This document shows, in pieces, positions 723-26,958 of a DNA stretch of 37,455 nt. The notes under the pieces are model-generated. The model saw nothing but the letters and a program-made list of their open reading frames with translations. It did not search any database and was not told where the DNA came from. Each line of letters opens with the position of its first letter. Position 1 is the stretch's first letter. The DNA comes from a virus: positions 1-37,455 of the IMG/VR virus record IMGVR_UViG_3300050006_000929; one strand, given 5' to 3'. The translations under genes and the position numbers were made by a program.

Positions 723-1387
723 CGGTAGACCTACAGCTCGTGCTCATCCAGGACCGGGTCCCGCTCCGGTTCATGAACTACGTCCCAGAGATGGCAATCC
801 CTACCCTCGAGCTCCGGGGCAAGGACTTCCGCACGGTCAGCGAGGTGCTGATCAACGACGTGCGCTCCCCCAGCTACCTCGTCATGTCCGACACCCGGAT
901 GCTGGTCCAAATCCCGACCACGGAGGCAGGGGCGACCATCCGAGGCGTGACGGTGCTCAGTCGGAGATTCACGGCCACCGAGCGGAGCATCATCAGCTTC
1001 CGCCTGGGGGCGCTGAATCAGGGCATCCGGGGCCTGGAGAAGCTGGTCCAGCACTTCGTGGTCGAGGTGCTCACCACTCCGGGCCGCGACATCTTCAACA
1101 AGGCCCGCGGCGGTGGTCTACGGTCCCTGATCGGTACGCCCACAGGCAAGCACTCGAAGACGAGGGTGACGGGAGCGTTCGCGCAGTCCGTGGACCGGGC
1201 GGCGGCGCAGATGGTCGCACGGCAGACCACCCAGAACCTACCGCCCGACGAGAAGCTCCTGGCCGCGGACCTCGTCGGTATCGACTACGACGCCGCCCGC
1301 GGTGAAGTCCGCGGTCGTGTCCAGCTCGCCTCCATGGCCGGCCAGGCGGCGAAGGTAACTCTCTCCTCGACGCAGGATGACAGCTGA
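719..1387 (+). CDS. Baseplate protein: IPT/TIG-like domain joined to a gp25-like (GPW/gp25) domain
   Basis: This 222-residue protein reads as two parts. Residues about 25-95 match the IPT/TIG immunoglobulin-like pattern: a short Pro-Thr-Leu strand, L-R-G-K-D-F, then EVLINDVRSPSYLV and MSDTRMLVQIP. Residues about 100-222 match the pattern of the gp25/W baseplate wedge family: a helix, then LTTPGRDIF, then GGGLRSLIG, a second helix, and C-terminal strands (VRGRVQL). In T4 and P2, gp25/W is a small baseplate wedge protein encoded beside the J/gp6-type wedge protein, exactly as here. The gene overlaps both neighbours by 4 and 1 bases. The assignment rests on motif pattern and synteny; the TIG fusion is unusual for this family. 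Confidence 0.62.
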   Translation: MTVDLQLVLIQDRVPLRFMNYVPEMAIPTLELRGKDFRTVSEVLINDVRSPSYLVMSDTRMLVQIPTTEAGATIRGVTVLSRRFTATERSIISFRLGALNQGIRGLEKLVQHFVVEVLTTPGRDIFNKARGGGLRSLIGTPTGKHSKTRVTGAFAQSVDRAAAQMVARQTTQNLPPDEKLLAADLVGIDYDAARGEVRGRVQLASMAGQAAKVTLSSTQDDS

Positions 1388-4300
1388 TGTCCAACGATGA
1401 TTTCAAGGCGTTCGTCGTGTCCCGGCTCCGGGCGGCAGAGCCCGCCCTGGACCTCACGGCAGGTTCCCGGTGGATGACCCGAGTGGTCGAGCCCATCGTC
1501 AGCCGGTTCGGGGACGACCCCCTGGGCCTGGATACGGGCGTCTTCATCCGTACCCGGCTCCAGCAGGAGTTCCCCAACCTCGGTGTGGTGGAGGGGCACG
1601 CAATCGACGACGCGTTGGTCAAGCCGAGCATCCCGATCGTCTCTGCCTTCCGTCGTGCGCTGATGCAGATCCAGACGGATCGCAGCCTCATCAACCTGGA
1701 CACCATGAGCGACAACTCCGTCGACGCATGGCTGGCCAACTTCTTCCTCTCGCGCGCGGCCGGAGGGTACGCCGTCGGGACAGGGCGGGTCTTCTTCTCG
1801 AGCCCCACCTACGCGACGTTCACTGCCACCAACCCCTTCATCAGCAGAAGCGGGCTCACCTTCCTGCCCCCCAACCCCCAGACCATCACGGTCACCCAGA
1901 TGGCGGCCCAGCGACAGGGAGGGTTGTACTACGCGGACGTGATCCTGCGCGCGGAGTCCCCGGGCGAGGACTACAACCTCGAGCCAGGCGACCTCACCTC
2001 GGTCACGGGCATCGACGGCGCAGTGCGCGTCACCAACCTCTTCCGCTTCTCGGGCGGACTGGCGCGGGAGACCAATGTCCAGGCGTCGTCCCGCGGTGAG
2101 CAGGCCCTCACGGAGAGGTCCCTCACCTCCGGCCGCGGCATCTTCACTCGGATCATGGACCTGTACGCCGGCGCGGTGCGCAACCTCGTCGTCGTGGGCA
2201 TGGGGGATCCCGAGATGCAGCGGGACATCCTTCGTGGATCCAGCGAGGGCCGTCTCCTCAGCAGTGGGGTGAGCCTGACCATCGGCACCTTCGTGCTGCA
2301 CATGGGCATGTTCGAGGACCGCGGCATCCTGGGTACGGAGCTGATCGAGGTGGGCAACACCATCGACCTCAACTACTGGCCCCTGCTCTACGGCCTGTCG
2401 TTCGACCAGCAGCACGAGGAGTTTGCGATCGAGGCCATCGTCGCCGACACCCGGACCTTGATCCCCTCCATCCCGAGCATCGTGCTGATGCAGCTCGACG
2501 GTATCCCGGCCCCCACGGGGACCGTACTCGGTGGGATCCCCGCGGTCCTGCCCGGCGTGTTCTCGGCGGTGAAGGGCAACGGACAGATCACCGTGTCCGA
2601 GCTCCCGGGCGGCATCCTGCAGCCGACCACTCCCAACGGCCTGATCGAAGTGGACGACAACGCGGTCCACCTCGGGGGCAAGCACGACATCTGGGTCCGT
2701 CCGACCGCGGACACGGCCAAGGCGCTGACGGTTACAGCCCTGGCAGACGAAGAGCCCCTCGTCGCGGGTCGAACCATCGTCACGGCCGGCCTGGGTGCCA
2801 ACCCCAACATCGTCTCCTCCTCCGACGCCACGGTGGACTGGATCGAGCTCGGGACGGAACGCGGCATGTTGTTGGTGATCCAGGACGGGGTCGACGCAGG
2901 GACCTACGCCATCCTGGAGGTCGCCGCGGACCACCTCGTCCTCGACGCGGACATGACGTCGAGCGAGGCCAGCCTGCTGTTCAAGGTGGTCGATGAGGTA
3001 CAGCACGACCTCGTGACACCGAAGGTGCTGAAGGTTCCCTTCGGTACGGAGGCACCTGGCAACGACCTCGCCACCATCATCGGATCAGAGACCGTGGTCC
3101 TGGGGATCAACGCCATCTCGTACGGTGCAGAGGTTGGGGACACCCTGGAGATCCTGGCCGGCCCCAACGAGGGGATCTACCAGATCATCTCCTTCGCCAC
3201 CAGCGGCGGCGGCACCACCCCGACCTTGGACCGCCCGATGGGGTCGAGCGGCTCCCACCTGTCGTACAAGATCTACACTGCGCAGGAGGCGATCCAGCGG
3301 CCGATGGTCCGTATCCAGCCCCAGGGAGTCCGTCTCCTGGATAGCGCGGACCAGACCACCGACACCGTCATCCCTCCCGCACTCCCCGTCGACGCGAGGA
3401 ACACCCACGCCTTCACGGGCGCAGAGCCCATCTGCGATGGCCGGTGGGGCTTCGTGGCGCCGGACCCCGGCCCCATCTTCCAGCCTGTCGACAGCGCGCC
3501 GTGCTCTGCGACGGAGTGGCTCGAGGCGCAGCTGATGGCAGACGTGGTCGACCCTGACGAGGAAGACCGCGCCCTGGAGATCCTGGACGTCCTGGACGCT
3601 ATCATCTCTGGTGGGGACTACACGGATGGATGCATCCCATGTGATGGGTGGATCGCCTGTGTGCGCCTCACCACCAAGCGGCTGCACATCTCCTTCCTGC
3701 CGAACTCCGGGTTCGTCACCTACCTCGGCCAGATCGTCGACTGGCTCGACACGGTGTTCACCAACTTCTTCCGCATGGCCAACCCCTTCACCATTGAGGC
3801 GGATGCCACGGGCATCTCCATCCCGTTGGGCATGGGTGCGGAGCTGCCCGGGGAAGGAGAGACCCCCCTGTGGCAGACGGAGATCTGTATCCCCAAGGAG
3901 TTCTTCGACTGCTGCTGCAACGTGTGGATCGGCCTCCCCGAGTTCGACATCGCCCGCCTCGCCCAGATTATCGACGCCGCCGTCGGCGGGGAAGGCTGGG
4001 ACGCGATGGAGAACCTGGACAACCTGTTTACCCCGGAGGTGATCCTGGCTGTCTTGTCGCTCATCGCAGACGCACACGACCCATGCGCTCTGCAAGCCCA
4101 GGCCGGGGACGTGCTGGTGCTGCACACAGGCCCCAACGCCGGGGGCTACGTCATCCAGGACGTGCACAGGTACGACCTGAAGATCCCGCTGGCGTTCATG
4201 GGCACAACCACTGACGAGGCGCTGGCCTGGGCAGAGACGGTCCCGATCCTGTCGCTGGCAGTCGTCATCATCGAAGGGGAGTTCCAGGTACAGGCGTGCG

Positions 4301-6462
4301 AGGCCCTGTGCGACTTCTTCGCCGAGGGGTTCCCCGACGAGCCGCCGTTCCCCGACATGCCCGAGTTCGACGGCTACTGCTACGACGACTACGGCAACGA
4401 GAAGAGCCCCTTCGACTGGCTGATCAAGTTCATGCAGTGGTTCATGGACTTCCTCTCGAGCCTGGGGCTGGACGTTCCCGACGACATCCCGATCCAGCCG
4501 GGCACATTCGTGCAGGGACTCTTCGGGCTCCTGTTCCCGAGCTACGGCGTAGGAGAGGGAGTGTGCGAGGGCACGGTGCGGGTGTACTGGGCAGAGCCCA
4601 CCACTGCGGAGTTCGACGGCAGTGGCAACTGCCTCGTGCTGCCCGACGACGATGACGACTCTGCCACACCACCGCCCGTCATTCGGTCAGGCCCGGCCTC
4701 CCTCTTCACCGGAACCATCGGGGAGACGGAGCTCCTGTTCGCGGCCAGCACCAACGTGGATCCGTACATGCTGTTTCCAAGCAAGGACACCACGGTGGAT
4801 GTGAACGTCCTGGACTGGCCGCGGCACCTCAGCGTGGTGCAGGACCCGGGAGGATGGGCGAACCTGCAGATCACGGACCTGGAGGTCCCGGCACCCATCG
4901 CGCTGGGGCTACAGCCGTTCCAGGACGTCCTCCAGCTGCACGAGGAGCGGTTCCTGCTAGGTACCAAGGACCGGCGCCCGGCGCTGGCGACCATCGTGGG
5001 CAGCAACATTGTCCGCATCCTGGACTCCTTCCCTCACGACGTGATCGCCGACCAGGAGATCGAGGACGGGGACATCCTCTTCATCGAGGAGGGGCTCGAC
5101 GCCGACGGATACCGCGTGACCCGCCGCCTGACGGATAAGACGTTCGAGCTGGACCGCCCGATGGTGGACAGCACCTTGTCTGTGATCAAGGACGGGGCCG
5201 ACGGTTCTTTCGACGCCACAGCCGTGGCACCGGCCAATGCTCGCTTCACCTCTGCCTCGTCTCCCTTCACCACGGAGGACATCGGTCGATACCTCACGGT
5301 GTACGGGACGGTAGACGGAGAGAACGACGTGTCGAGACGGATCGCGGCCGTGGCACCGGACGGCAGCTCCGTGGACCTGGACGACCCCTTCTCCTCGGTG
5401 GTGGACGTCAACGTGGTCTGGTGTGTGTCGGCGGCTCCCGCCACCCCGCCGGGCGTCACGGATGCCGGTGGCACGGAGCTGGTGGCCCTGCGCCCCTTCC
5501 GTGTCTACAACGGCACCGCGACCGAGTGGATGGTCATGTCCGTTGACACGTCCCTGGACAACTCCGTGGCCGCGTTCGAGATCATGTCGTACGGGGAGTT
5601 CCTGTCCGGGGACGCAGTGACCGCGGCCCAGCCGACCGATGGAGTGCATCAGCCGTTCTCCGTGGTGCGTCCGGGGATCCAGCGCATCACCTCGACCCAG
5701 ATGGCCGAGAACCGCGAGAACGGGCTGTACTACTTCGACGTCAAGGTGCGGTCCCTCGGGTACGACGAGGTCTTCAACATCGCCCGGACCACCAAGCTGG
5801 AGCCCGTGCTCGGCACGTACCGTGCCGACGGCTACAGGTACGACGTGGAGAACACCAACCTGACCTTCTCCTCCTACGAGGAGGTGGGCCTGGTGTTCTC
5901 CCCCAGGTTCCTCCCGGTCGGCCTCGAGGACCGCGAGGAGAACTTCCTCCCGTGCCGCGGCCAACGCCTGCAGATCACGTACGACCAGGCACCTCTGGTG
6001 GACCAGATCCAGCAGGTGCTCAAGACCAACCTGGATCGCCAGCTGGTCTCGGATCCCCTGGCGAGGCACTTCCTCCCCAGCTACGTGTACTTGCACATCG
6101 TCTACAAGGGCGGGGACGAGACCTCCGTCATCGCGCAGGACTTCACGGACAAGATCCGTGGCCTCGAGCCCGAGGACGAGTTCAGCGTGGCCGCCCTAGA
6201 GAAGATGATGGAGCAGCGCGGGGTGGCCGACTGGACACATCCCATCGAGATCATCACGCTGACGCACGACCTGGATCGTCGGATGGTGGTGGAGCGGTCG
6301 GAAGACCGTGTCGGTGGGACGGCGCTGGTGCTGTACAACGGCACCAATCGCACATCCTACTTGATCCCGGGGCCTGATCGCAGTACGTCTGACGAAGAGG
6401 ACATCCCTCCGGGGGAGCGGATCTTCCTGGAGCGAGAGTCAGCGGTGACCGTGCTGAAATGA
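1387..6462 (+). CDS. Giant baseplate J-like (gp6/gp47-type) wedge protein with long insert
   Basis: This 1691-residue virion protein starts like baseplate J proteins: DLTAGSRW (about 23-30), a helical segment, an A-x-G-x-x-x-G-x-x-F strand region, the PGEDYNL turn (about 192-198) and a stretch near 280 ending GMGDPEMQRD. Ordinary J proteins are a few hundred residues long. Here about 1100 residues follow, including short G-D/G-Y beta modules (near 490, 580, 905 and 1225) and a segment from about 683 to 1082 with 15 cysteines. The C-terminal 280 residues return to J/gp6-like sequence (STQMAENRENGLYYFDV, then YVYLHIVYKGGDETSV and a helix ending RGV). The start ATG overlaps the previous stop (TGATG). 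It presumably forms the inner baseplate wedge. The 3' end is overlapped by 24 bases by an antisense gene. Confidence 0.72.
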   Translation: MSNDDFKAFVVSRLRAAEPALDLTAGSRWMTRVVEPIVSRFGDDPLGLDTGVFIRTRLQQEFPNLGVVEGHAIDDALVKPSIPIVSAFRRALMQIQTDRSLINLDTMSDNSVDAWLANFFLSRAAGGYAVGTGRVFFSSPTYATFTATNPFISRSGLTFLPPNPQTITVTQMAAQRQGGLYYADVILRAESPGEDYNLEPGDLTSVTGIDGAVRVTNLFRFSGGLARETNVQASSRGEQALTERSLTSGRGIFTRIMDLYAGAVRNLVVVGMGDPEMQRDILRGSSEGRLLSSGVSLTIGTFVLHMGMFEDRGILGTELIEVGNTIDLNYWPLLYGLSFDQQHEEFAIEAIVADTRTLIPSIPSIVLMQLDGIPAPTGTVLGGIPAVLPGVFSAVKGNGQITVSELPGGILQPTTPNGLIEVDDNAVHLGGKHDIWVRPTADTAKALTVTALADEEPLVAGRTIVTAGLGANPNIVSSSDATVDWIELGTERGMLLVIQDGVDAGTYAILEVAADHLVLDADMTSSEASLLFKVVDEVQHDLVTPKVLKVPFGTEAPGNDLATIIGSETVVLGINAISYGAEVGDTLEILAGPNEGIYQIISFATSGGGTTPTLDRPMGSSGSHLSYKIYTAQEAIQRPMVRIQPQGVRLLDSADQTTDTVIPPALPVDARNTHAFTGAEPICDGRWGFVAPDPGPIFQPVDSAPCSATEWLEAQLMADVVDPDEEDRALEILDVLDAIISGGDYTDGCIPCDGWIACVRLTTKRLHISFLPNSGFVTYLGQIVDWLDTVFTNFFRMANPFTIEADATGISIPLGMGAELPGEGETPLWQTEICIPKEFFDCCCNVWIGLPEFDIARLAQIIDAAVGGEGWDAMENLDNLFTPEVILAVLSLIADAHDPCALQAQAGDVLVLHTGPNAGGYVIQDVHRYDLKIPLAFMGTTTDEALAWAETVPILSLAVVIIEGEFQVQACEALCDFFAEGFPDEPPFPDMPEFDGYCYDDYGNEKSPFDWLIKFMQWFMDFLSSLGLDVPDDIPIQPGTFVQGLFGLLFPSYGVGEGVCEGTVRVYWAEPTTAEFDGSGNCLVLPDDDDDSATPPPVIRSGPASLFTGTIGETELLFAASTNVDPYMLFPSKDTTVDVNVLDWPRHLSVVQDPGGWANLQITDLEVPAPIALGLQPFQDVLQLHEERFLLGTKDRRPALATIVGSNIVRILDSFPHDVIADQEIEDGDILFIEEGLDADGYRVTRRLTDKTFELDRPMVDSTLSVIKDGADGSFDATAVAPANARFTSASSPFTTEDIGRYLTVYGTVDGENDVSRRIAAVAPDGSSVDLDDPFSSVVDVNVVWCVSAAPATPPGVTDAGGTELVALRPFRVYNGTATEWMVMSVDTSLDNSVAAFEIMSYGEFLSGDAVTAAQPTDGVHQPFSVVRPGIQRITSTQMAENRENGLYYFDVKVRSLGYDEVFNIARTTKLEPVLGTYRADGYRYDVENTNLTFSSYEEVGLVFSPRFLPVGLEDREENFLPCRGQRLQITYDQAPLVDQIQQVLKTNLDRQLVSDPLARHFLPSYVYLHIVYKGGDETSVIAQDFTDKIRGLEPEDEFSVAALEKMMEQRGVADWTHPIEIITLTHDLDRRMVVERSEDRVGGTALVLYNGTNRTSYLIPGPDRSTSDEEDIPPGERIFLERESAVTVLK
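1884..1983 (+). repeat. Copy 1 of an internal J-domain repeat in the giant baseplate protein
   Basis: It encodes TVTQMAAQRQGGLYYADV followed by a PGEDYNL turn. A matching segment lies at 5681-5780 in the same protein and reads TSTQMAENRENGLYYFDV. The two copies share TQMA, a conserved Arg and G-L-Y-Y-x-D-V about 1266 residues apart. This suggests an internal duplication of the J-type core, or one domain duplicated before the long insert arose. Confidence 0.6.
5681..5780 (+). repeat. Copy 2 of an internal J-domain repeat in the giant baseplate protein
   Basis: It is the C-terminal counterpart of the segment at 1884-1983, sharing the TQMA and GLYY-x-DV core. It introduces the C-terminal gp6-like part of the protein. 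Similarity is visible in the protein and only partly in the DNA, so the duplication is old or shaped by shared structure. Confidence 0.6.
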
Positions 6463-6744
6463 GGCACTCCCCGCTCGTACGATGACGGAGGTATAGGGAT
6501 CGAACTCACTGCCGCATGAGGTACACTGGCCCAGGAAATTGGGCGTGATCTGGTTGGGCTTGAAGGGCTGACGGGCGTTGATGATTGGCGTGATACCACC
6601 ACCGCACTCCGGACAGGAGACTGTCGAGAAGAACTCCTTGACGTCCGCGTCGGCCTGCATCACCAGCTCCTGGTCACCATGCTCCGCCACGATGGCCTCG
6701 AGCTCGGCACGATCCATGAACTGCAGGTGGGGAGTTGAGCGCAT
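6439..6744 (-). CDS. Small zinc-ribbon protein encoded antisense within the tail operon
   Basis: This 101-residue protein has a helical N-terminus (DRAELEAIVAEHG) and a classic zinc ribbon: C44-P-E-C47-G-G-G and C74-T-S-C77-G-S, 26 residues apart, the latter followed by EFDPY. It is the only gene on the - strand among the structural genes and it fills the otherwise empty 285 bases between two + strand genes. Its 3' end overlaps the baseplate gene by 24 bases. Its ATG lies 3 bases from the divergent ATG at 6748. No good Shine-Dalgarno is seen, but a -10-like TATACT sits 6 bases before the ATG, so the mRNA could be leaderless. Function is unknown; a transcription-linked or host-directed role is only a guess. 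Independent expression is typical of phage morons. Confidence 0.72.
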   Translation of the reverse strand: MRSTPHLQFMDRAELEAIVAEHGDQELVMQADADVKEFFSTVSCPECGGGITPIINARQPFKPNQITPNFLGQCTSCGSEFDPYTSVIVRAGSASFQHGHR

Positions 6745-6747
6745 CGC

Positions 6748-9033: not shown

Positions 9034-12000
9034 ATGGGCACCACGACCGAACACTACGTCGTGAAGATGGGGGACGAGAACCAGCCCCCGGTGGCCCGTG
9101 TACTCCCCGTGGAGCAGTCGAACGCCCTGGGATCCGTGGTCCAGCTCACCGGAGAGGCCAGCTACGACCCCGAGAGCGCCGTCCTCGACTTCACGTGGTC
9201 CTTCCTCGAGGCGCCCATCGGCAGCGAGCTGACCGACGACGGCTTCGACTCCCTCAACGACACCGGGTCCGTCGTGTCGTTCACACCCGACCTCATCGGA
9301 ATCTACAGGGTCTCCCTGGTCGTCAGCGACGGCGAGCTGGACAGCGACGTGGCAGAGGGGTACGTCCGCATCTCCCCGGTGCTGGCGCCGGTATGCACGG
9401 ACCTGACGCCCGACGCCAAGCACATCTTCCGGTGGGTCACGGATTTCCTGGGCCTGATCGAGGACAAGGAAGTCTTCAGCATCCTGTGGTCAGCCCTCCT
9501 TCAGATCTGGGGAGACCAGCTCCTCGCGGGGCTGCAGGTCGACTACAACAAGAGCATCCACACGGCCCAGGAGCTGTTCCAGCGACGGTGGCAACACTAC
9601 GACCCCAGGCTGGCTCTGGCGCCCAGCTTGCACTACGTGGTTGTGGGGAACCAACAGGACGGGACGCACGCTGTCACAGGTGGGGTAGGGCGCATCAACA
9701 AGGGCATCCTGCTGAGTGACGCCACGATGTTGGTGCTGGAAGGCGTCGTCAGCGTCGACTACGTCTCGTACCAGATCCAGGTGGTGGACAGCAACGGGAT
9801 CGCCCCCGGCAACAACGGCGTGTACACCATCGCGCGCGCCCGCACGGATCGATCGCAGTATCAGCTCTCGGGCGCTACTCGGTTGCCTGATGTGACCGCA
9901 GACGTGATCACCACGGGCAACGACCTCGTGGCAGTGGCGGGCTCCGACCTCGTCACCTCTGCCCTGACGGACTTCAGTCTCTTCGCCGGGTTCGAGTCGG
10001 GGGACGTGATTCGGATCGGCAACGAGTACATCATCATCGACGCGGTGGGCGTAGCGGGCGGGCTGCCCGACAACAGCACGCTGCAACTGCGTAGTGCGCC
10101 TACATCTCCCGGGGCAGGCCTGGCCTTCACCGTGTACAACCTCGTCACGCTCCGCCTGGATCCGTTGGAGTCGATGTACACGGACACCTTCTTCATGCCG
10201 CAGTCCGACGGCGACCTGAGCCTGCTCAACTCCGGGGAGATCACAGGCTACGCAGACATCACCAACATCACCGAGGTGGTGGTCGGTGTGGCCAAGGTCT
10301 TCGACGATGCGGTGGGGAAGACCATCCAGCTGGATGGGGACCAGAACAACGGCGCCTTCGTGGTGGGGAGCGTCAACGAGGCAGGGGACGGCTACCACAT
10401 CGTCAGCGCCTTCGGGGGCACCTTCCCCCAGGAGGGGGTGGCGTTCACGCTGGAGGAGGTGGGCAGCGCCGACGGCCGGATAGTGGTGGTGAATGGTCGC
10501 TCGGCCACCCTGCGCCGCGCGTACAACGACGATCTCCAACCCAACCCGCCGACAGGGCCGGGTCCTGTGACGGTCGGCGTGGCTACGGAGGCTCTGCTCC
10601 TGTCCGGTCTGGAAGACGTCGAGTGGCGCTTGCCCGCCACGTTGTACTCGGAGCAGTACGACTTCGAGGACATGGGCGTCCAGCCCGGGGACCTGTTGGT
10701 GGGTGAGCTGTACCGCCCAGACACGGGGGCCGTAGCGAACGTCTACGCCTCGGTGGTGTCCGTGGACGGTCCCCGTCTCGGGTTCGAGGTGACGCGGCAG
10801 GACATCACGGCAGGGACAGACCTGGACCTGTCGGATGAGGAGAAGTACACGATCGCGGAGTCCCTCGGCTTGGAAGGCGCGACCCTGGACCTGCTCGGTG
10901 CCCTGGAGCTCGAAGGGGACGCGCAGGACGTGGCGGACGCCTACAACTCCACGGCCTTCGGCAACCAGTACTACAACGTGCCGGTACGGGACTCCCTGGG
11001 AGTCGTCGTCGGCCCCCTGACGCTCCAAGTGCGAGCCAAGTTCGTCGTCCGAAACTCCTGGGTGCCTGTCCACAACGACCTGGTCAGCTCGCCGTGCCTG
11101 AGCGAGTACATCGCCAAGCCCGTCGTCTACGAGAACGAGGAGGGTGCAGTCACCCTGGTCACCAAGGAAGGTGCGACCAAGGAGCTGGACCTCACTCCCT
11201 TCAAGCTGGTGGAGAACAGGGAGTTCACGATAGGCCCCGAGGACGCCGTGTGGGGCAGGGACGGGGACGCCGTAGCGGGCTCTCCGATCTTCACCTCGGC
11301 AGCGGGGGACTTCCTCAACCGGGTCGTGGCGGCGGGGGACACCCTGGAGCTCCGCGGGTTCAACGCTGGCCACTACGCGATCTCGGAGGTGCTGTCGAGC
11401 ACCCAGGTGAGGATCGGTGAGGAGGCCACTGGGGCCGCCCCCACGATCTCCGACGGCGATGTCGAGTGGTATCTGACGCGACGCCGACCAGGCAACTTCA
11501 TCCGCTTCGTGCCCGGACTGTTCAGCCCGGCATGGCCCGCCCCGGCTCGCCTCTGGTCGGAGGTGAGCTTCTTCGACAACGGGCAAATCCTCGAGGACAA
11601 CTTCGGTCACCTCGTCAAGCTGTCCAGGGAGGACCTGTCTTCCCGGGAGTCCACGGGCATCTCGTACAAGGACGCCTTGGAAGGCCTGATGTACGCCTGG
11701 TCCTTCGGGCCGCGGGTCGAGATGGTTCGGGTGGGCGCGCAGCTCCTCCTCGGCCTGGCCACGTCGGAGAAGCGTGGGGAGATCACGGAGATCCGGGAGG
11801 ACTACCAGACGGACCCGACGACTGGAGTAGCCACCTTGGGGCGCATCCTCGTGGAAGACGTCGACGTCGACGACAACACCACGGGGCTGATCCGGGTCTA
11901 CTTCTTCACCCCGACGACGGACGAGGCCGACGAGAACTCCACCGGAGTGGCGATCAACCCGGTGACAGGTACGCGCTACACCAAGGGGGACGTCGTCGAG

Positions 12001-13845
12001 AAGTTCACCCCTCTGGCCCGCGGGGTCGAGGTCCTGGACTACGTCAACAGTCCGACGTGGTGGGCGGGCATGGGCTCGCAGGGAGTGGTCGGTGCGGAGC
12101 TGCGGAAGTACCACACGTGGCGCCTGCTGGCGAACGTGGACGTCATCGACTACTCCGACCTCAAGATGACGGCGGACTTCGTGCGTGCCATCCGCGCGGT
12201 CTGGACAGAAGTCGACGCCGTGATGTTCAAGCTCCTGGTCGACGATGTGACGATCTCCGACACGGTGGAGATCGAGGGATCCCTGCTGCTCTTCGACAAC
12301 CCGGGTATGGGCCTGGAAGCCGCCCTGGGCTTCGGCTACAGCCACCACGGCCACCAGCTCATGGACTTCGGGGAGAGCATCAAGGCCAGCCGGGTGCTGT
12401 TCACCGGGTGGGACCTGGAGACCGTGGCCGGGGTCGCCGAAGTGACCTCCGCCCGTGGAGGCTTCCTCGGCGACCTGGAAGAACCCCCGAATCCCTACTT
12501 CAGCGAGGTGCCAGAGACCACCGCGGTGACCGCCCCGGACCTGCTGACGTCCAACCAGATGGTGCGCGGCGTGAGCCTGTATCACGAAGGAGATATCCTC
12601 CACATCTTGGAGGGGGACAATGCCGGCCGGTACGAGATCGAGGGAGTGCCCGGGAACAAGGAGCTCTCCCTCCGACAGGCGGGGGTAGCCCCGAGTACGA
12701 TCCCTGCTCTACCGCCTCTCAGCCCAGACCCTACGCAGCTGAAGAAGGCCTCGGGGCAGAAGTTCATGATCGAGCGGCGGGTGCGCTACCCGCTGATGGG
12801 TGAAGAGGGCGGAGCAGGACTCGGTGTCGAGGTGTCCAGTGTCGACCCGGTGGCCTACCTCTCGTACGACACGGGCGTGGGCTCCGCTGGCTTGGCCGTC
12901 GGGGATCGGCTGGTCGTCGTCGACAACTACGAGGCCACCTACGAGATCCGCAACATCACCGACGAGGCCGGGGTGGTCCGGTTGGACCTGGATCGGCCGG
13001 CGCTCCTGCCTGGGATCACGGACGACGACTTCAAGGTCTTCCGTCCGGTCATGTTGGCGAACCCGCTGTGCGCAGGGGTTGTCCATGCCCACGCCGGTCA
13101 GAACGTCACCCTGGGAGAGGACCTTTGGGGGCACGGCGTGTCCGTGTACGACTACCTCTACATCTTGACGGGTCCCGAGGCCGGGCACAGGTTCCGCATC
13201 ATCGACCTCCCCGTCGCCGGGGACTCGTGGGTGCAGGAGATCCCCGGAGCCAACCTCGTCGGCGCGGAGTGGGAGATCCGACGCGAGGAGCTGGGGGACA
13301 CGCCCTTGACCTTCGGCAAGGTGCTCGAGGTACTGCCCTGGGCGAAGACGGAGCTGGTGTTGTACGACCCCAAGTTCCAGATCGTCGTGGCTGTGGCCGA
13401 CATGCAGGGGATGGGAGGCACGGCCGCGGTGTCCCCGAGCACGGATCTCCAGGCGGCGGGCGCACTGCCTGGGGACTTCCTCGAGCTCGGCAACCCGGCC
13501 CAGCCTACGGATACCGCGACAGGGGTGTTCGAGGTGGCTACGGCCGGGCCAGCAGTGTCGTTGACCAAGGAGGTGGGGAACGCCTTCTCGGGGACCAACG
13601 CACGCATCCTCCGCCGCACGGCGGACTTCAACGTCAACCTGATCACCGTCACCTCGGTGGCCGGGACGAACTTCGCAAACCTGGGGGTACTGCCCGGGGA
13701 TGTGGTAGAGCTGTGGGAGAACCCTGGGGACACGCCGTTTGTTCGACGCGTCCTGTCGGCGGCAGCTGGTACGATCACCCTCACCAGGACCATGGGCGTT
13801 GTGGCGCTCCGGTTCGGTAGGATCATCCGGCGCGAGGAGAACTGA
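9034..13845 (+). CDS. Giant tail protein with N-terminal PKD domain and repeated beta modules
   Basis: This is a 1603-residue virion protein. Residues about 17-117 match a PKD (Ig-like) domain: NQPPVARV, TGEASYDPES, LDFTWSF, then VSFTPDLIGIYRVSLVVSDGE. Residues about 125-190 form a helical, Trp-rich segment (FSILWSALLQIWGDQLL, YNKSIHTAQELFQRRWQHYDP), probably an assembly interface. Much of the rest consists of short beta modules with the pattern G-D-x-L-x-L ... G-x-Y-x-I: AGDTLELRGFNAGHYAI near 770, EGDILHILEGDNAGRYEI near 1185, and four more between about 1285 and 1600. The ATG follows the previous stop with no gap and its own stop overlaps the next start (TGATG). PKD domains occur in phage tail proteins that contact other proteins or glycans. 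The exact position in the tail is unknown. Confidence 0.7.
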   Translation: MGTTTEHYVVKMGDENQPPVARVLPVEQSNALGSVVQLTGEASYDPESAVLDFTWSFLEAPIGSELTDDGFDSLNDTGSVVSFTPDLIGIYRVSLVVSDGELDSDVAEGYVRISPVLAPVCTDLTPDAKHIFRWVTDFLGLIEDKEVFSILWSALLQIWGDQLLAGLQVDYNKSIHTAQELFQRRWQHYDPRLALAPSLHYVVVGNQQDGTHAVTGGVGRINKGILLSDATMLVLEGVVSVDYVSYQIQVVDSNGIAPGNNGVYTIARARTDRSQYQLSGATRLPDVTADVITTGNDLVAVAGSDLVTSALTDFSLFAGFESGDVIRIGNEYIIIDAVGVAGGLPDNSTLQLRSAPTSPGAGLAFTVYNLVTLRLDPLESMYTDTFFMPQSDGDLSLLNSGEITGYADITNITEVVVGVAKVFDDAVGKTIQLDGDQNNGAFVVGSVNEAGDGYHIVSAFGGTFPQEGVAFTLEEVGSADGRIVVVNGRSATLRRAYNDDLQPNPPTGPGPVTVGVATEALLLSGLEDVEWRLPATLYSEQYDFEDMGVQPGDLLVGELYRPDTGAVANVYASVVSVDGPRLGFEVTRQDITAGTDLDLSDEEKYTIAESLGLEGATLDLLGALELEGDAQDVADAYNSTAFGNQYYNVPVRDSLGVVVGPLTLQVRAKFVVRNSWVPVHNDLVSSPCLSEYIAKPVVYENEEGAVTLVTKEGATKELDLTPFKLVENREFTIGPEDAVWGRDGDAVAGSPIFTSAAGDFLNRVVAAGDTLELRGFNAGHYAISEVLSSTQVRIGEEATGAAPTISDGDVEWYLTRRRPGNFIRFVPGLFSPAWPAPARLWSEVSFFDNGQILEDNFGHLVKLSREDLSSRESTGISYKDALEGLMYAWSFGPRVEMVRVGAQLLLGLATSEKRGEITEIREDYQTDPTTGVATLGRILVEDVDVDDNTTGLIRVYFFTPTTDEADENSTGVAINPVTGTRYTKGDVVEKFTPLARGVEVLDYVNSPTWWAGMGSQGVVGAELRKYHTWRLLANVDVIDYSDLKMTADFVRAIRAVWTEVDAVMFKLLVDDVTISDTVEIEGSLLLFDNPGMGLEAALGFGYSHHGHQLMDFGESIKASRVLFTGWDLETVAGVAEVTSARGGFLGDLEEPPNPYFSEVPETTAVTAPDLLTSNQMVRGVSLYHEGDILHILEGDNAGRYEIEGVPGNKELSLRQAGVAPSTIPALPPLSPDPTQLKKASGQKFMIERRVRYPLMGEEGGAGLGVEVSSVDPVAYLSYDTGVGSAGLAVGDRLVVVDNYEATYEIRNITDEAGVVRLDLDRPALLPGITDDDFKVFRPVMLANPLCAGVVHAHAGQNVTLGEDLWGHGVSVYDYLYILTGPEAGHRFRIIDLPVAGDSWVQEIPGANLVGAEWEIRREELGDTPLTFGKVLEVLPWAKTELVLYDPKFQIVVAVADMQGMGGTAAVSPSTDLQAAGALPGDFLELGNPAQPTDTATGVFEVATAGPAVSLTKEVGNAFSGTNARILRRTADFNVNLITVTSVAGTNFANLGVLPGDVVELWENPGDTPFVRRVLSAAAGTITLTRTMGVVALRFGRIIRREEN
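12578..13836 (+). repeat. Cluster of G-D/G-Y beta modules in the giant PKD protein
   Basis: Modules of about 45-55 residues follow one another with gaps: near 12590 (EGDILHILEGDNAGRYEI), 12894 (VGDRLVVVDNYEATYEI), 13140 (YDYLYILTGPEAGHRFRI), 13480 (GDFLELG) and 13690 (GDVVELWENPGDTPFV). The common core is a Gly-Asp turn, a hydrophobic strand, a Gly-rich turn, then an aromatic residue and Ile. Divergence is high, so this is a protein-level repeat, not a DNA tandem repeat. Confidence 0.55.
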
Positions 13846-14432
13846 TGCTTCACGTCCAAGGAAGAGACCCCGGGGTCGAGTGCAACGTCTGGATGGGTCT
13901 GCGCGACCGGCGAGGCCGGGTCGTCCCCGAGAGCGTGCGCGAGGGCCACAACGTCTGGACCCTGACCGGCCGCGAGTACCTCGTGGGGCGGATGTCCCTG
14001 GCTTCCGTGGCCCCGACGAGAGTGGAGGGGCGGTCGGACTGCGTCTACTACATCGGCATTGGATCCGGGGTGCAGACCGAGGTCGAGTCCGTCAGCGCGC
14101 TGGTCACCCCGGTGGAGTACAGGTCAGGCAGCTTCTTGGCCCCGATCCAGACGCCTCCGACCTTCCCCGCGGACACCACCAGCACTCCTCGCACGTCCGT
14201 GCGCTACATCCGGGAGTACGCCAGCAACGAGATCAGCCTGGGTGCTGACGTCGTCGTCACCGAGGCAGGCCTCTACACCGACGGCGACCCTTCCAACAAC
14301 GACGCTCCGCCTGCTCCCGTCACGCTGGCCGCCGCCGGTGGCCGGGCACCACTCGCGTACCACTCCTTCGAGCCGATCACGAAGTTCCTCGGCTTCACGT
14401 TCGTCATCATCTGGGAAGTGAGGATCACCTGA
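13845..14432 (+). CDS. Small tail or baseplate-appendage protein
   Basis: This 195-residue protein follows a pattern common in phage tail genes next to fibres. An N-terminal NVWTLTGREYLVGRM segment is followed by CVYYIGIGSG (about 66-75), a central region with repeated VSALVTPVEYRSGSF, then VVVTEAGLYTDGD (about 136-148), and a C-terminal FEPITKFLGFTFVIIWEVRIT. The order 'G-I-G-S/T-G, E-A-G-L-[FY], F-x-P-I-x-K, W-x-[IV]' is familiar from small tail proteins of many phages, although its exact function is not settled. It sits between two giant tail genes and overlaps each by 1 base. A connector between baseplate and appendage is a reasonable inference. Confidence 0.6.
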   Translation: MLHVQGRDPGVECNVWMGLRDRRGRVVPESVREGHNVWTLTGREYLVGRMSLASVAPTRVEGRSDCVYYIGIGSGVQTEVESVSALVTPVEYRSGSFLAPIQTPPTFPADTTSTPRTSVRYIREYASNEISLGADVVVTEAGLYTDGDPSNNDAPPAPVTLAAAGGRAPLAYHSFEPITKFLGFTFVIIWEVRIT

Positions 14433-17400
14433 TGGGCACCCGATTCCAGAGACGGCCGCGACTGCTGGGGAACCTCCCCTTCCCGGTGCTCAACCAGCCC
14501 TTCATCCGGGGAGCCAACCGGGCCGACCTGACCACGGGTATCTTCGCGGGCCTGATCCTCCCAGGTGATCTCCAGGTGGACGTGACGGGTACGACCAGTA
14601 CGGTCAACCTGACTGCGCAGGACATCAGCACGGTCGTCAACGACTGCAACACGCAGTTCGCCGCCGACGCCTCTCCTGCCACGGCGAGCAACGAGGGCGG
14701 GTTCCTGGTGATCCGAGCAACGGGCGCCGGTGAGGGGACCTACGTGCACATCCTGGGCGGCTCCGCCTGCGATGCGCTGGGCTACCCGTACTCCCCCGAC
14801 CCGTACGCCCGCGTCGAGGCGGACGACATCGGCACGTCCCCGCCCTACGCCACCGACGACGAGCACCCGTTCTACCCCACGTTCATCCAGCAGATGGAGG
14901 ACGTGACGCCGGAGTCCGTCAACCGCGGCTTCTATCAGCTGGCCGCCAACGACGACGAGCTGGAGTACTACCTGACCCGTCCTCTGGCCCTCCCGCAGAT
15001 CCTCAACGTGGATCCGTCGGCCCCGGCCTGGGCACCCCACCTCGTGCTGGACGCATCTGGGAACATCGAGCAGATCGACTTGTCGGTGCTGGGAGACCCC
15101 GCGGGTCCTGCGCCCGACCTGAACGACCGCATCTTCGTCGGCAACCTGAGCCGTACCTCGACCCTGCGCCAGATCGCCGGCTACTTCGCCGTCCAGGACT
15201 CACGCGATGTGGAGATCATCTCGGGTGGCATGACCGTCCGGGTGTCGGCCATCACGCACGGTCAGCGCGTCAACCCCCTGCTGTTCCCTGACGAGGACTC
15301 GCCGCCCGCGGCTCCGCTGCCCGACGCGGCGGACTGGACCGGAGGAGGAGGCAACGTGCTCGGTGGGGGCACTGTCAAAGCGGCGTCCGCCGCGATCACG
15401 GACGTGCTCTACCGATCTGGGGTGCAGGCCAACGGTGCTACATTCCTCGCAGATGGCGTGCGCGCCGGCGACAAGGCCACCATCGCCGGGGCAGGCGTCA
15501 CCGAGCCGTTCAATCACGACGGCGAGTACCGCATCGAGCAGGTGGTGCACGAGGACGCGTTGCTACTGAAGGCCCGTGGGCTCGACGCCATGGAACTGAA
15601 TCCGTCCATCGCGGGGCCGCTGGGCAACGTCGAGGTGTCAGTGGATCAGTTCGCGGACGGGGTCTGGATGTCCTTCCAGCCCGCGATCCCCGCAGGCCGT
15701 GCGTTCAAGCTGATCTACGGGGTGGAGTCCTCTCTCGCGCAGATCAACCCCGACTACCTGCTGGACCTAATCGTCCGCACCTCTGAGGAGGTCGACGACC
15801 TGGTGCAGGAGACCATCCGCAGGATGAAGGGACCGCTGGTCGACAGCACGGACGACTTCACGGCCTTCCCCTTCGCCCACACCATTCCCGGTGGCGTGTC
15901 GTACGCGGGCGAGGCGGACGTGTCGCAGGAGCTGCAGTGGCGCCGGACCACGATGCAGGGCGCCTACGACGGCCAGGGCCGCGGATCGGGCGGAGGGTTC
16001 TACGCCCAGATTGACTCCCGGCCGCCGCGCTGGGAGAACCGTACCCCCAGCACCCGCGCCGGAACCATTGAGCGCACAGGGGTTGCGGCGGACATCCTCG
16101 CGGGAAATGTACTCCACGTCCCCGGTGAGGCGTTCACCTTGGACGACATCGGGAAGACCGTCATCCTGAAGTGGCCGGGGGCGGCTCCTCTGGCCGTGCG
16201 CGACAAGGCGGCGTTCAAGCTGATCGACTACCTGACGTCGGAGTCGGCGGTGCTGGAGCCCGCTACCCACGCGCCTTCCATCCCGGTCTCGTCCGGGTAC
16301 GACTACGACCTCGTCACCGACAGGTTCGACGACTTCCGTTCCACACACCACGCCCACGCGCTGGTGCCTGGAGTGGCCGGTGGCCGACAGGGCTACGTGT
16401 TCACCTCGGATGTCGACCCCAACCCCATCAACGTGCCCCTGGGCGAGGGCTTCCTGAACCTCCGTGAAGCCTCGGTCCACATGCACGACAGCGGCCAGGC
16501 GCTCAGTCTCGTTCCCGCAACCTTGCCGGGCGGGAACAACGAGATCTACCTGCCGTTCGATCCGACGACCACGAGGAACATCCGCGCAGGGCACCCCAGT
16601 GGGGAAGTCCTGTTCGGCGGCTGGGTCTTCATCAGCAACAGCCCTGGGAACGATGGCTGGTACCGGCTGCTCGAGAAGAGGGGTGTGCACAAGGGCGACG
16701 CGAACAACTTGGTCACCGTCGCGGACCTGGACGGGAACTACCCGAGCTTTGTCGCCGACCTGACCGCTGCGCCGAGGGTGCACTTCTACTACTCGGTCAT
16801 GTCGTCGAGCACGTTCGAGGCGCTGGACCCCGCAGCGATCATCTCCGGCAACTCCCCCCTGGGGACCCTGCTGCACGAGGATTTTATCGAGGGTGGTCCC
16901 CACTACTCGGCATCCGGCGTGCGCGTACCGGAGGGCTGGGGCGCCCTGGGGATTAGCTGGCGGGGCGAGGCGTTCGGCGGGATCTGGGGAATCCTCAACG
17001 ACGCCGCGTTCGATGCCCTGGACAACGGAGACGGCGCGGAGGGACCGGCCGTCCGCTTCTACTCGTACACCCCTGCATATGGGGCGCACTTCGCCCACGA
17101 GGCGGCGCCCATCTCGTACCCGTCCACGTACAGGGGTGGCTTCGCAGGCACCTTCGTGGCGCGCACCAGGAGCCAGGACCGCAATAGCGCCTCCTTCGCT
17201 GGGACCCCCGGGGGCTGGGCCGTGATGGCCGTACAGAAGGGGTGGGACCCCGCTCTGTTGGTGGGCTCCGTCGACGACGTATCCACGATCACCAACTACA
17301 AGTGGAGCAACATCACTCCACTGGTGTCCTGGGCCGCCCAGGTCGGTGCGGCCGAGACGGACATGACCCAGCTCCAGAACGGCTACCTGGAGTTCCTCGG

Positions 17401-20329
17401 CGCCGCGTACCAACGGAAGCCCTCGGCTTGGTGGGATACCACCCGGCGCTACGGGGGGTTCTACTCCGAGATGAGCGGCGCGTTCCGCCACGCCCTGTAC
17501 CCCATGGCCATCGAGTCCACGAGGGACAACGGCAGGTACCACGCTTCCCGGACGTGGTCTCGGTTGGGCCACAGGGGTGAGATCTACGAGCCCTCGCCGA
17601 CGCTCTCGACTGCGCCGCCCGACCCCGCCGTCTCTAGGAGCCACGACAGTAGCGGCTTCGTGTCGATTGCAGGGGTCCAGCTGTTGGGCACGTCCGATCA
17701 GTACATCGGGTGCCACGTCCTGCTTGACGATGTGACCGACCCCTCGCCGGCGGGCATGAGTGGGTGGTACACGATCATCAACGTCATCACCGACGGATCG
17801 CAGGCGGACCCCACCCTCGTCGAGGTGTTGGGGACCAAGACTTTGACTGCCCGGGCCGCCCCGACGGGTGTGGTGGCTGCCATCCATGGGAGCAGGTGGC
17901 ACTACGGCCACGTGGACCAGGCGCAGTTCATGATGATCGGTACGGAGTCGCACCTGAACCCCGGTGCTGCCATCTTGGCGTTGCGGCAGGCGCCGGAGAT
18001 GCCGGTGCTCGGTGTGTGGGCCACGCAGCCCTACGCACTGGGCCCCACCTCGACGGGGCCACAGGGCTATTCCGATATCGAGGCGGAGATCGATGCTGGT
18101 GGAGAGCCGGCCTACCCGGCCTACGGGTACCAGACCCACGTGCAGCGGGTCTCCCCGACGTTGGTGGATCAGCCCTATGGAGTGGGGTTCGGGGGTCTGC
18201 AGTGGGTCATCAGTGACCCGCACTACGTGGGAGAGGAGCCGTTCCTGAACCTGGGATGGGGTGGGATGTATCGACGAGCACGTCCCATCGGTCCTGCGGG
18301 TGGGCCGTTCCGGGATATGGACCGCTCCAGCACAGAGATCATGAACTTCTGGAACTCGGAGTACGTGTTCTTCACACGTGACTTCGGAGTCGTCCTGTCT
18401 CCCGCCAACTTCTTCAACCTCACCTACGTGGGGCAGGTGGACTCGGGGCTGTTCCCCGAGGCGATGATGCTCCACATCGAATCTACTTCGGCGAGCTGGT
18501 CCCTGTCAGATGACATGGTCGGCTTCGTGTCGAAGGGCCAGAGGGTCTTGCGTGAGAACCACTACCACGTGGAGGTTCAGATCGAACTCCAGGTTGTCGG
18601 TAGCCCGGGGTTCGGCAACGAGTTCGACATGAACGTGCGCCTGATAGCGGACGATGGTGCAACCCTGGGCGACCAGGTGGTCTCGGTACACAACAACGAC
18701 CTCGATCGCGCCGCGATGACCTTTACGCTGGACAACCTGCGCGAGGGGAACATCGACGTGTACGAGGACTTCACCACCTTCCGCCTTGAGGTCACGCTGG
18801 GGGCCCTCACCTACTCGGCGGCAGCGGCCGGGGAGCTCGACCTCCACTTCCGTCGAATCATCATCCACACGGGGCAGGAGACTTCGGTGCACCAGGGCGC
18901 GCTGGTGGTGGAGGGCCCAATCATTGCGCAGGGCGGCTTCCACGCGGCCAGTCCGATCAGGGACTACCTCACGATCGGACCCGCCGAGGCCGACCTCTAC
19001 GTCCCGAACGGGTACGCCAACGAACCTCCTGTCATTGACACCGGGGACTACACCGGCAAGCCGTTCGGCAGTGCAGGTGAAGACGAGCCCATGGCCTACC
19101 CAGTGGAGCCCCCTGGCCGCGCCCTTCTCCGGACGGCCTACAAGGACGGGGACATCGACAAGAACTTCTACGCGCTGGTCGAGGCAGAGGACTGCCTGGA
19201 CTTCAAGAAGGGGCCGGAGGCGGCCTCCATCCGGTTCTTGTCGAAGGTACTGGACCCATTCGTCTACTCGTCTGGCTGGCCGAATCCCCCGCTTCAGGGG
19301 CAGACGCACTACATCTGTCCTCCTGGGCGCGTGGGATTCATCGTTCCTCTGCGGCTACCGCACGCGGCGCTCCTCACGGAACTCGACCTCGTGATGTCGT
19401 TCAAGCCCAGCTACACGTTCGATGAGCACGGGTCGGGCGGCCCGACGATCATCGACGGGGCCTGGAACATCTGGCACGCACGGCAGGGCATCCACCAGCA
19501 GACGGAGGACGGAGTACGAGTCCGTCTGTGTAGGCAGCACCTGTTCCCCGACACGGACAGGGCCTACGAGAGGATCGGTTCCGAGGACGCCATGCGCGAC
19601 TGGGGCTTCCGAAACGGCTACCACGCCAAGACGTTCCAAGGTGGGCGCGACGTGTGGGACTACCCGGAAGAGCACCACCGCATCGGGTTCCACGAGGTGC
19701 TCCTTCGCACCTACGTCTCCCTTCGGGGCGACATGCACCGCATCGACGCGGGTGATCCCAACGTCAACTGGGTCGGGCACACGTTGCCGACGATGCTGAA
19801 CCAGACCAAGGAGGAGATGCAGATCGGACGCGAGATCATGGTGACGCGCAAGTGGTTCTCGCAGACGGAGGAGTGCGGCGCGGACCCCGACAGCCTAGTC
19901 CCGAACCCCCATTCCTGGGTGAGTGGGGATCCCGGCTACGAGACCCCGGACATGGCATCGCCGGAGAAGTTCTTGGTCGACACGAGGCAGTTCGCCTACT
20001 ACCTGATCATCGACGCCTGGGGATCCCCAGGGTACAACCCGTCTGGCGGCCAGGCGCTGCTCTCCGACACCCACGTGCCCCCCAACATGATCCAGTCGCC
20101 CGATCCCTTCGAAATGGAGTGGTTCTACACCGGGCACTTCCAGCCGGCCATGAACGACGCGATCAAGCCCGACACCCCGCCGTGGGTTCGCGGGTACCGG
20201 GTACAGCCACAGCTCATTACAGGGGAGTGGGAAACTCCTCTCCACTACTACGCCCTCATGGCCACCCCGATGATGAAGTTCCGCGGCGCCCGCTGCGGAT
20301 TCGAATGGACCCGGGTTCGCCCCGGGTAG
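14432..20329 (+). CDS. Giant tail appendage (fibre or spike) protein
   Basis: This 1965-residue protein is the last and largest of the tail cluster, where fibre and receptor-binding genes usually lie. Residues about 40-125 resemble a domain common in phage tail fibres: LTAQDISTVVNDCN, then GGFLVIRATGAGEGTYVHI and ACDALGYP. About residues 430-490 are helical and could form a trimer stalk (NPDYLLDLIVRTSEEVDDLVQETIRRM). G-D/G-Y-type modules occur near 345, 570, 725 and 1090. The central and C-terminal regions are very rich in Trp, Tyr, His and Gly (for example GFYSEMSGAFRHALYPM; FEMEWFYTGHFQPAMN), fitting carbohydrate or surface binding. No lyase or peptidase motif is recognised. The start overlaps the previous stop by 1 base. 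Confidence 0.62.
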   Translation: MGTRFQRRPRLLGNLPFPVLNQPFIRGANRADLTTGIFAGLILPGDLQVDVTGTTSTVNLTAQDISTVVNDCNTQFAADASPATASNEGGFLVIRATGAGEGTYVHILGGSACDALGYPYSPDPYARVEADDIGTSPPYATDDEHPFYPTFIQQMEDVTPESVNRGFYQLAANDDELEYYLTRPLALPQILNVDPSAPAWAPHLVLDASGNIEQIDLSVLGDPAGPAPDLNDRIFVGNLSRTSTLRQIAGYFAVQDSRDVEIISGGMTVRVSAITHGQRVNPLLFPDEDSPPAAPLPDAADWTGGGGNVLGGGTVKAASAAITDVLYRSGVQANGATFLADGVRAGDKATIAGAGVTEPFNHDGEYRIEQVVHEDALLLKARGLDAMELNPSIAGPLGNVEVSVDQFADGVWMSFQPAIPAGRAFKLIYGVESSLAQINPDYLLDLIVRTSEEVDDLVQETIRRMKGPLVDSTDDFTAFPFAHTIPGGVSYAGEADVSQELQWRRTTMQGAYDGQGRGSGGGFYAQIDSRPPRWENRTPSTRAGTIERTGVAADILAGNVLHVPGEAFTLDDIGKTVILKWPGAAPLAVRDKAAFKLIDYLTSESAVLEPATHAPSIPVSSGYDYDLVTDRFDDFRSTHHAHALVPGVAGGRQGYVFTSDVDPNPINVPLGEGFLNLREASVHMHDSGQALSLVPATLPGGNNEIYLPFDPTTTRNIRAGHPSGEVLFGGWVFISNSPGNDGWYRLLEKRGVHKGDANNLVTVADLDGNYPSFVADLTAAPRVHFYYSVMSSSTFEALDPAAIISGNSPLGTLLHEDFIEGGPHYSASGVRVPEGWGALGISWRGEAFGGIWGILNDAAFDALDNGDGAEGPAVRFYSYTPAYGAHFAHEAAPISYPSTYRGGFAGTFVARTRSQDRNSASFAGTPGGWAVMAVQKGWDPALLVGSVDDVSTITNYKWSNITPLVSWAAQVGAAETDMTQLQNGYLEFLGAAYQRKPSAWWDTTRRYGGFYSEMSGAFRHALYPMAIESTRDNGRYHASRTWSRLGHRGEIYEPSPTLSTAPPDPAVSRSHDSSGFVSIAGVQLLGTSDQYIGCHVLLDDVTDPSPAGMSGWYTIINVITDGSQADPTLVEVLGTKTLTARAAPTGVVAAIHGSRWHYGHVDQAQFMMIGTESHLNPGAAILALRQAPEMPVLGVWATQPYALGPTSTGPQGYSDIEAEIDAGGEPAYPAYGYQTHVQRVSPTLVDQPYGVGFGGLQWVISDPHYVGEEPFLNLGWGGMYRRARPIGPAGGPFRDMDRSSTEIMNFWNSEYVFFTRDFGVVLSPANFFNLTYVGQVDSGLFPEAMMLHIESTSASWSLSDDMVGFVSKGQRVLRENHYHVEVQIELQVVGSPGFGNEFDMNVRLIADDGATLGDQVVSVHNNDLDRAAMTFTLDNLREGNIDVYEDFTTFRLEVTLGALTYSAAAAGELDLHFRRIIIHTGQETSVHQGALVVEGPIIAQGGFHAASPIRDYLTIGPAEADLYVPNGYANEPPVIDTGDYTGKPFGSAGEDEPMAYPVEPPGRALLRTAYKDGDIDKNFYALVEAEDCLDFKKGPEAASIRFLSKVLDPFVYSSGWPNPPLQGQTHYICPPGRVGFIVPLRLPHAALLTELDLVMSFKPSYTFDEHGSGGPTIIDGAWNIWHARQGIHQQTEDGVRVRLCRQHLFPDTDRAYERIGSEDAMRDWGFRNGYHAKTFQGGRDVWDYPEEHHRIGFHEVLLRTYVSLRGDMHRIDAGDPNVNWVGHTLPTMLNQTKEEMQIGREIMVTRKWFSQTEECGADPDSLVPNPHSWVSGDPGYETPDMASPEKFLVDTRQFAYYLIIDAWGSPGYNPSGGQALLSDTHVPPNMIQSPDPFEMEWFYTGHFQPAMNDAIKPDTPPWVRGYRVQPQLITGEWETPLHYYALMATPMMKFRGARCGFEWTRVRPG

Positions 20330-26487: not shown

Positions 26488-26958
26488 CTACTTCTTCGGC
26501 TCCCAGGGCTGGGTGCCGCAGTTGGGGCAGATGGGCACGTTGGCGGTGTAGTCCACCTTGTCCGACCCGCACTTGGGGCAGGGGGCCTTCCCCTCGCTGG
26601 CGGTCTTGGTCTTCTCGTCGTCGGTCTGGACGCCGTACTTGTCCATGGCTTGCTCCTTGAGTTGTGCCCTCAGCGCGGTGCCGGGGCGGAAGGTGACTCG
26701 GATCTGGGGAGGGACGGTCACGTGTCGGACCTCGCCCTCCCTGACGACGCGCCCAGGACGCGCCTTGTACGTGGTGAACCGGAAGGACCCGAACCCCCGG
26801 ATGGCCACCTCCTCGCCCCCTCCGAGCACCTCGCCCATCACGTCGAAGGTGGCAGACACCACCTCCTTGACGAGGCGCCGGAGGACGCGGTTGCGGAAGT
26901 ACTTCCACCTCGACTGGAGGTGCTTGAGCACTGCGTCAGCGAGCTCGTTGCGGGTCAC
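26488..26958 (-). CDS. HU/IHF-like DNA-binding protein fused to a zinc ribbon
   Basis: This 156-residue protein begins with a GTG overlapping the previous stop by 4 bases. Residues about 1-105 match HU/IHF: a helical dimer region (TRNELADAVLKHL; LVKEVVSATFDVMGEVL), then EEVAIRGFGSFRF, arm strands, and VTFRPGTALRAQL. The arm lacks the usual G-R-N-P-x-T-G stretch; RPGRVVREGEVRHVTVP replaces it, so the Pro that intercalates DNA in HU/IHF is not at its normal place. A short linker leads to a zinc ribbon C-P-K-C-G-S ... C-P-N-C-G-T at the C-terminus. It would bend or compact DNA; the ribbon may add RNA, DNA or protein binding. Confidence 0.8.
   Translation of the reverse strand: MTRNELADAVLKHLQSRWKYFRNRVLRRLVKEVVSATFDVMGEVLGGGEEVAIRGFGSFRFTTYKARPGRVVREGEVRHVTVPPQIRVTFRPGTALRAQLKEQAMDKYGVQTDDEKTKTASEGKAPCPKCGSDKVDYTANVPICPNCGTQPWEPKK

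Follow-up and report, generated by a model that had tools for sequence, protein, structure and literature searches.

The window analysed here, the whole 37,455-base stretch of an IMG/VR virus record, carries a tail and baseplate block on its plus strand and replication genes (a family A DNA polymerase, a UvsX/RecA-like recombinase, a primase, and a DnaB-like helicase) on its minus strand. No tRNA genes were found in the 37,455 bases. Three large genes of the plus-strand block are at issue:

1387..6462, plus strand: protein A (1691 aa), a J/gp6-type baseplate wedge protein with long module-bearing inserts
9034..13845, plus strand: protein B (1603 aa), the next large baseplate/tail protein, with an N-terminal PKD-like domain and many module copies
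14432..20329, plus strand: protein C (1965 aa), with one weak module copy and no known family

Residues 85-240 of protein A match the baseplate wedge subunit family PHROG_6 (E=8.4e-11), and its N-terminal part is 24-27% identical to proteins of Vibrio phage D181, Salmonella phage Arash, and Bacillus phage G, the last of which carries the annotation baseplate wedge subunit. Against Pfam Baseplate_J the protein scores 14.6 bits, under the family cutoff of 21.1. Sequence places protein A among the gp6/J-type baseplate wedge proteins. Its likeness to the gp6/gpJ wedge subunit lies in residues 85-240; it differs in having roughly double the length of many relatives, owing to inserts that bear the modules. 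Relatives of protein A come in one size range of 660-860 aa and another of 2094-2219 aa. Among related phage contigs, the A proteins of L021 and L023 are 41 and 32% identical to that of the window in their best segments, while that of L011 is more distant; a wedge-family scan of genome contigs gave just one distant locus, in a bacterial MAG. A short J-like-domain stretch is present twice in protein A, at ~165-215 and 1432-1475 (TQMAAQRQGGLYYADV, TQMAENRENGLYYFDV), with ~1270 residues between. Protein A also contains a cysteine-rich insert (residues 683-1082, window ~3433-4632; CIPCDGW, CIPKEFFDCCC) that is possibly metal-binding or disulfide-bonded; similar cysteines are found in L021.

Orthologues of protein B, 800-1600 aa in length, come after the wedge gene in relatives. 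The N-terminus of protein B (window 9079-9336) gives a PKD_4 match that is under cutoff (E=7e-4), and in the alignment this PKD-like domain is missing from short orthologues. A tblastn search of protein B against cultured phages gave no match. Protein C, which has no match in Pfam or PHROGs, has a homologue in L021 (E=3e-166) and, judged by its position, is probably a fibre or adhesin. Two long antisense ORFs, one of 1037 aa facing B (9490-12603, minus strand) and one of 902 aa facing C (15767-18475, minus strand), are probably a by-product of the 65% G+C content. Further along the minus strand, a 326-aa protein (26488-27468) has an HU/IHF-like domain at ~170-275 and a C-terminus with a weak zinc-ribbon match.

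Within these proteins a module of ~60-80 residues recurs, longer than the motif quoted in an earlier note on this DNA, which had put copies at 40-60 residues. All five copies quoted in that note are present (at 3133, 4102, 11332, 12586, and 12898), 2-4 bases from the positions given there. At E<=0.01 a 38-row profile picks out 13 window copies, slightly short of the approximately fifteen that had been counted: protein A has five, protein B seven, and protein C a weak one. Eight of these 13 are rows of the profile itself and five were held out (starting at B 1183, A 897, B 1364, and B 1529, and at C 331-380). The copies are as follows:

2794..3000, plus strand: copy A1, protein A 470-538; iE 6e-16 (in profile); 16.8 bits with the B-only profile
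3058..3282, plus strand: copy A2, protein A 558-632; iE 5e-16 (in profile); 13.7 bits with the B-only profile; AlphaFold2 pLDDT 93.1
4075..4212, plus strand: copy A3, protein A ~897-942; E=1.4e-7 held out; 15.5 bits with the B-only profile; clear first half
4984..5214, plus strand: copy A4, protein A 1200-1276; iE 5e-13 (in profile); 12.1 bits with the B-only profile
5209..5436, plus strand: copy A5, protein A 1275-1350; iE 1.9e-8 (in profile); divergent DIG variant
9913..10146, plus strand: copy B1, protein B 294-371; iE 6e-10 (in profile); matching place in L021 and L023
10243..10461, plus strand: copy B2, protein B 404-476; iE 1.7e-5 (in profile); matching place in L021 and L023
11254..11484, plus strand: copy B3, protein B 741-817; iE 5e-17 (in profile); 13.7 bits with the A-only profile
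12517..12699, plus strand: copy B4, protein B 1162-1222; E=1.3e-8 held out; 18.9 bits with the A-only profile
12856..13050, plus strand: copy B5, protein B 1275-1339; iE 2.9e-8 (in profile)
13123..13206, plus strand: copy B6, protein B 1364-1391; core only; E=1.1e-4 held out; 6.4 bits with the A-only profile (best shuffle 5.2)
13432..13623, plus strand: doubtful copy, protein B 1467-1530; iE 5.2; by eye only and outside the 13
13618..13797, plus strand: copy B7, protein B 1529-1588; weak; E=1.1e-4 held out; iE 0.12 in another profile search
15422..15571, plus strand: possible copy, protein C 331-380; E=3.3e-4 held out; iE 0.15; hhalign P=0.0023

Protein C holds at most one copy, on which the tests disagree: the held-out and hhalign values stand against the iE and against the B-only profile, with which C 331-380 does not score above shuffled proteins. 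The module was said to be common to three giant proteins; this holds for A and B, while for the third it comes down to that one weak match.

Most pairs of copies are 15-30% identical and copy-versus-copy BLASTP is marginal (E 0.29-0.8), so profiles were needed to compare them. A profile of five window copies finds further copies in protein A at ~484 (iE 5e-6) and ~903 (iE 1e-5), with nothing comparable among reversed decoys. A profile built from B copies only recovers four A copies, which score 12-17 bits when the highest of 900 shuffled proteins reaches 3.8. In the reverse direction, a profile built from A copies only scores 13.7 bits at B 749-797 and 18.9 bits at B 1185-1213, with no shuffled protein above 5.2. 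Both results bear out the claim that one module is shared across genes. When the profile was iterated over relatives, 21 copies were found at iE < 1e-5, all in the A and B proteins of the window, L021, L023, and L011, and the best reversed decoy was 0.88 or worse in every round. Similarly, a full-length 78-column profile of 43 copies matches held-out copies of L017 (1.2e-9), L016 (1.9e-9), and L004 (9.9e-8), against a best reversed decoy of 0.067. The profile check proposed in the earlier note has thus returned significant matches between copies, including held-out ones. What the copies have in common is Gly, Asp, and hydrophobic core residues, and no model among Pfam, PHROGs, and NCBIfam supplies a name for the family. 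At the level of sequence, these comparisons show the repeat to be real and to be one homologous beta module within and between A and B.

The profile also matches proteins of 639-941 aa in related contigs. These are homologous to a Salmonella phage Arash protein (4e-48 to 5e-58; L047 at 1e-56) that matches the PHROG_279 tail sheath family (6e-10) and that falls under the cutoff of Pfam Phage_sheath_1; by this homology they are assigned as tail sheath proteins. In the sheath alignment, the copy at 394-460 of the L046 protein is missing from L047, L049, and Arash, with the flanks conserved, and the sheath, A, and B alignments agree in placing the module as an insert between conserved flanks. One further copy occurs in a protein of ~430 aa in L002-L004. 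Among cultured phages, a profile search found no module in Bacillus phage G or Vibrio phage D181 at E<=0.01, Arash has one weak match (5e-4) in its sheath protein, and tblastn with an L021 copy gave no match. Weak full-length tblastn matches to the phiKZ gp146 family (E 0.7-0.8) were set aside; the profile search was empty in phiKZ.

The copies of L021, L023, and L011, the last a more distant relative, lie at places that match those in the window. Of nine window copies tested, seven pair best with their positional counterpart in another phage, and A5 and B5 lack a clear partner. Most duplications therefore predate the split of these phages, so the copies are old and inherited, and recent spread is not supported. 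Of the earlier suggestion that the module had spread, what stands is that different genes share it and that it occurs in the sheath and ~430-aa proteins of relatives. Gain and loss of modules still happen over a longer time scale: in shorter wedge relatives the module sits elsewhere, and relatives lack one sheath copy although its flanks are conserved. In protein A of L023, a different repeat pattern (GETITGGTSGAVAVI, GETVTGSASEATSTI) is inserted close to the first module copy, just ahead of the module at 542-614.

The fold of the module was approached through copy A2, whose AlphaFold2 model, computed with an alignment of all copies and the sole good model obtained, has five strands, a pLDDT of 93.1, and a pTM of 0.80. 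The structure check proposed at the outset succeeded for this copy but not for B 1140-1603, for which a prediction with five orthologues reached a pLDDT of 41; therefore, the fold of the B copies is taken from sequence homology. Foldseek against the PDB gave no match to the A2 model at E<=0.001 (best 0.012), and its top rows were mostly phage tail and tailspike proteins. The top match in BFVD was a baseplate J-like protein (TM 0.88, rmsd 1.2). VIA-align placed the whole model on LKA1 gp49 286-372 (Z 8.2) and RcGTA hub 170-251 (Z 8.2), in both cases with model residues 1-79, and likewise on Klebsiella K1 lyase 141-233 (Z 8.0), phi92 gp150 710-797 (Z 7.9), lambda tail tip 491-566 (Z 7.4), R4C 166-245 (Z 6.8), and ubiquitin-activating enzyme E1 181-261 (Z 7.2; the FCCH domain, Pfam E1_FCCH), scores that are borderline given that the tool warns of common arrangements at a Z of ~8. 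Barrels of F- and V-type ATPases were also among the structural matches. The strongest reason for trusting these borderline scores is that the aligned segments begin and end only a few residues from the published limits of the domains, which are 284-370 in LKA1 gp49 (PMC5701251), 168-249 in the RcGTA hub (PMC7296036), and 162-243 in the R4C hub (PMC10276861). The model points to a known kind of phage barrel insertion domain, of which the module forms a sequence family without a name. The suggestion that it is undescribed thus survives at the level of sequence-family libraries, but the predicted fold matches phage tail insertion domains described previously (PMC5701251, PMC7296036, PMC10276861).

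Three other readings bear on what the module is and how it came about. Since GD and G-x-Y turns are frequent in beta-rich tail proteins, the similarity could reflect convergence with no need for common descent, as the low pairwise identities and non-significant BLASTP comparisons would allow. This is extremely unlikely, given that cross-gene and held-out profile matches exceed shuffled and reversed controls and that held-out copies from other phages are recovered at 1e-8 to 1e-9 by the profile of all 78 columns. That the module is recently mobile and hops still between genes of this phage would fit its being found in several unrelated tail proteins as well as a sheath copy that has been gained or lost; such mobility is nonetheless very improbable, as window copies are mostly nearest to positional counterparts in other phages rather than to each other, and resemble one another only weakly at the protein level. 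A third reading would make the module an SH3-like barrel that bears a KOW-type motif, like the ribosomal proteins eL14 and uL24. A profile search of PDB sequences does put eL14 at the top (E=0.003), with uL24, Spt5, and the ProQ C-terminal domain lower, and the module core G-x-L-x-I-x-x-G-x-x-x-G is KOW-like. These profile matches span mainly the central GD...G core, however, and what the structure search returns is phage insertion domains together with E1 FCCH and the barrels of ATPases, so that a KOW assignment appears improbable. KOW/SH3 ribosomal proteins, and likewise the P22 coat I-domain that is named in the LKA1 paper (PMC5701251), are absent among the 50 structure matches listed, a list that excludes no other family.

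The explanation preferred as a whole, to which a probability of roughly 0.75 is given, is that the module is a barrel insert of the LKA1/RcGTA type, anciently multiplied in baseplate proteins, with an outer spacer and contact role. Each module would be an all-beta insertion domain of 60-80 residues, five-stranded in the model and of the barrel type of LKA1 gp49 and the RcGTA hub, and every copy would fold like A2. The insert would have multiplied long ago within the baseplate proteins of a group of large contractile-tailed phages; in the window it supplies part of the extra length of A and B, which are up to twice the size of many relatives. The domains would lie outside the baseplate core as spacers and contact surfaces between adjoining subunits, and some may also contact cell-surface sugars. 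The T4 baseplate contains 12 copies of gp6 and six of gp7; by analogy, A and B would together give an estimated ~100 module copies per particle.

Spacer and subunit-contact roles seem most likely, and the main rival is that the modules are working sugar-binding domains that form, on the baseplate and also on the sheath of relatives, an array in which each unit binds glycan weakly, for reversible attachment to capsule or lipopolysaccharide. The matched RcGTA hub domain is termed oligosaccharide-binding and the Dit domain of T5 is said to have an oligosaccharide-binding fold (PMC7296036), and the R4C authors propose a sugar-binding role as for RcGTA (PMC10276861). These names derive from structural likeness, however, and the authors of the LKA1 study describe what its insertion domain does as unclear and mention that it may take part in substrate binding (PMC5701251). 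Further, the residues common to the copies are those expected at fold-keeping positions, and the fold is also matched by ubiquitin E1 and by the F- and V-type ATPases, whose known functions lack glycan binding. By analogy with the named domains, sugar binding as the working role is possible but unlikely. More doubtful is a broader proposal in which one barrel family serves as a general block in four contractile-tail proteins of a phage group, the sheath, the wedge, the next baseplate protein, and a fibre-like protein, its many copies forming a multivalent glycan-binding coat for reversible attachment.

The gain from this analysis is a profile that recognises a domain missing from current family libraries, in proteins that mostly carry the label hypothetical. 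The shared insert ties baseplate to sheath proteins in large uncultured phages, and module inserts help explain baseplate proteins of 1600-2200 residues; if it is true that copies bind sugars, they would also bear on how such phages attach. Among the systems compared, E1 FCCH shares the fold (Z 6.1-7.2 across many E1 structures, rmsd mostly 2.2-2.5 over ~70 residues) and differs in its unrelated function; Pfam E1_FCCH matches none of 38 copies at E<=1, and nothing relevant was found in literature joining the FCCH domain with a phage baseplate. The LKA1 gp49 domain has the fold predicted here over its full extent (Z 8.2, rmsd 2.6 over 72 residues) and is likewise an independent barrel set inside another domain. 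It is a single copy in a tailspike lyase, where it deepens the substrate groove, and is described with six strands (PMC5701251), whereas the module occurs in many baseplate copies, has five strands in the model, and is 12% identical to it. The RcGTA and R4C hub domains resemble the module in fold (Z 8.2 and 6.8), in domain limits that agree, and in being insertions in a baseplate protein, and differ from it in being present once per protein, in a siphophage-type tail, at 9-10% identity. Set beside these systems, the module is useful for annotation and is not a new kind of system.
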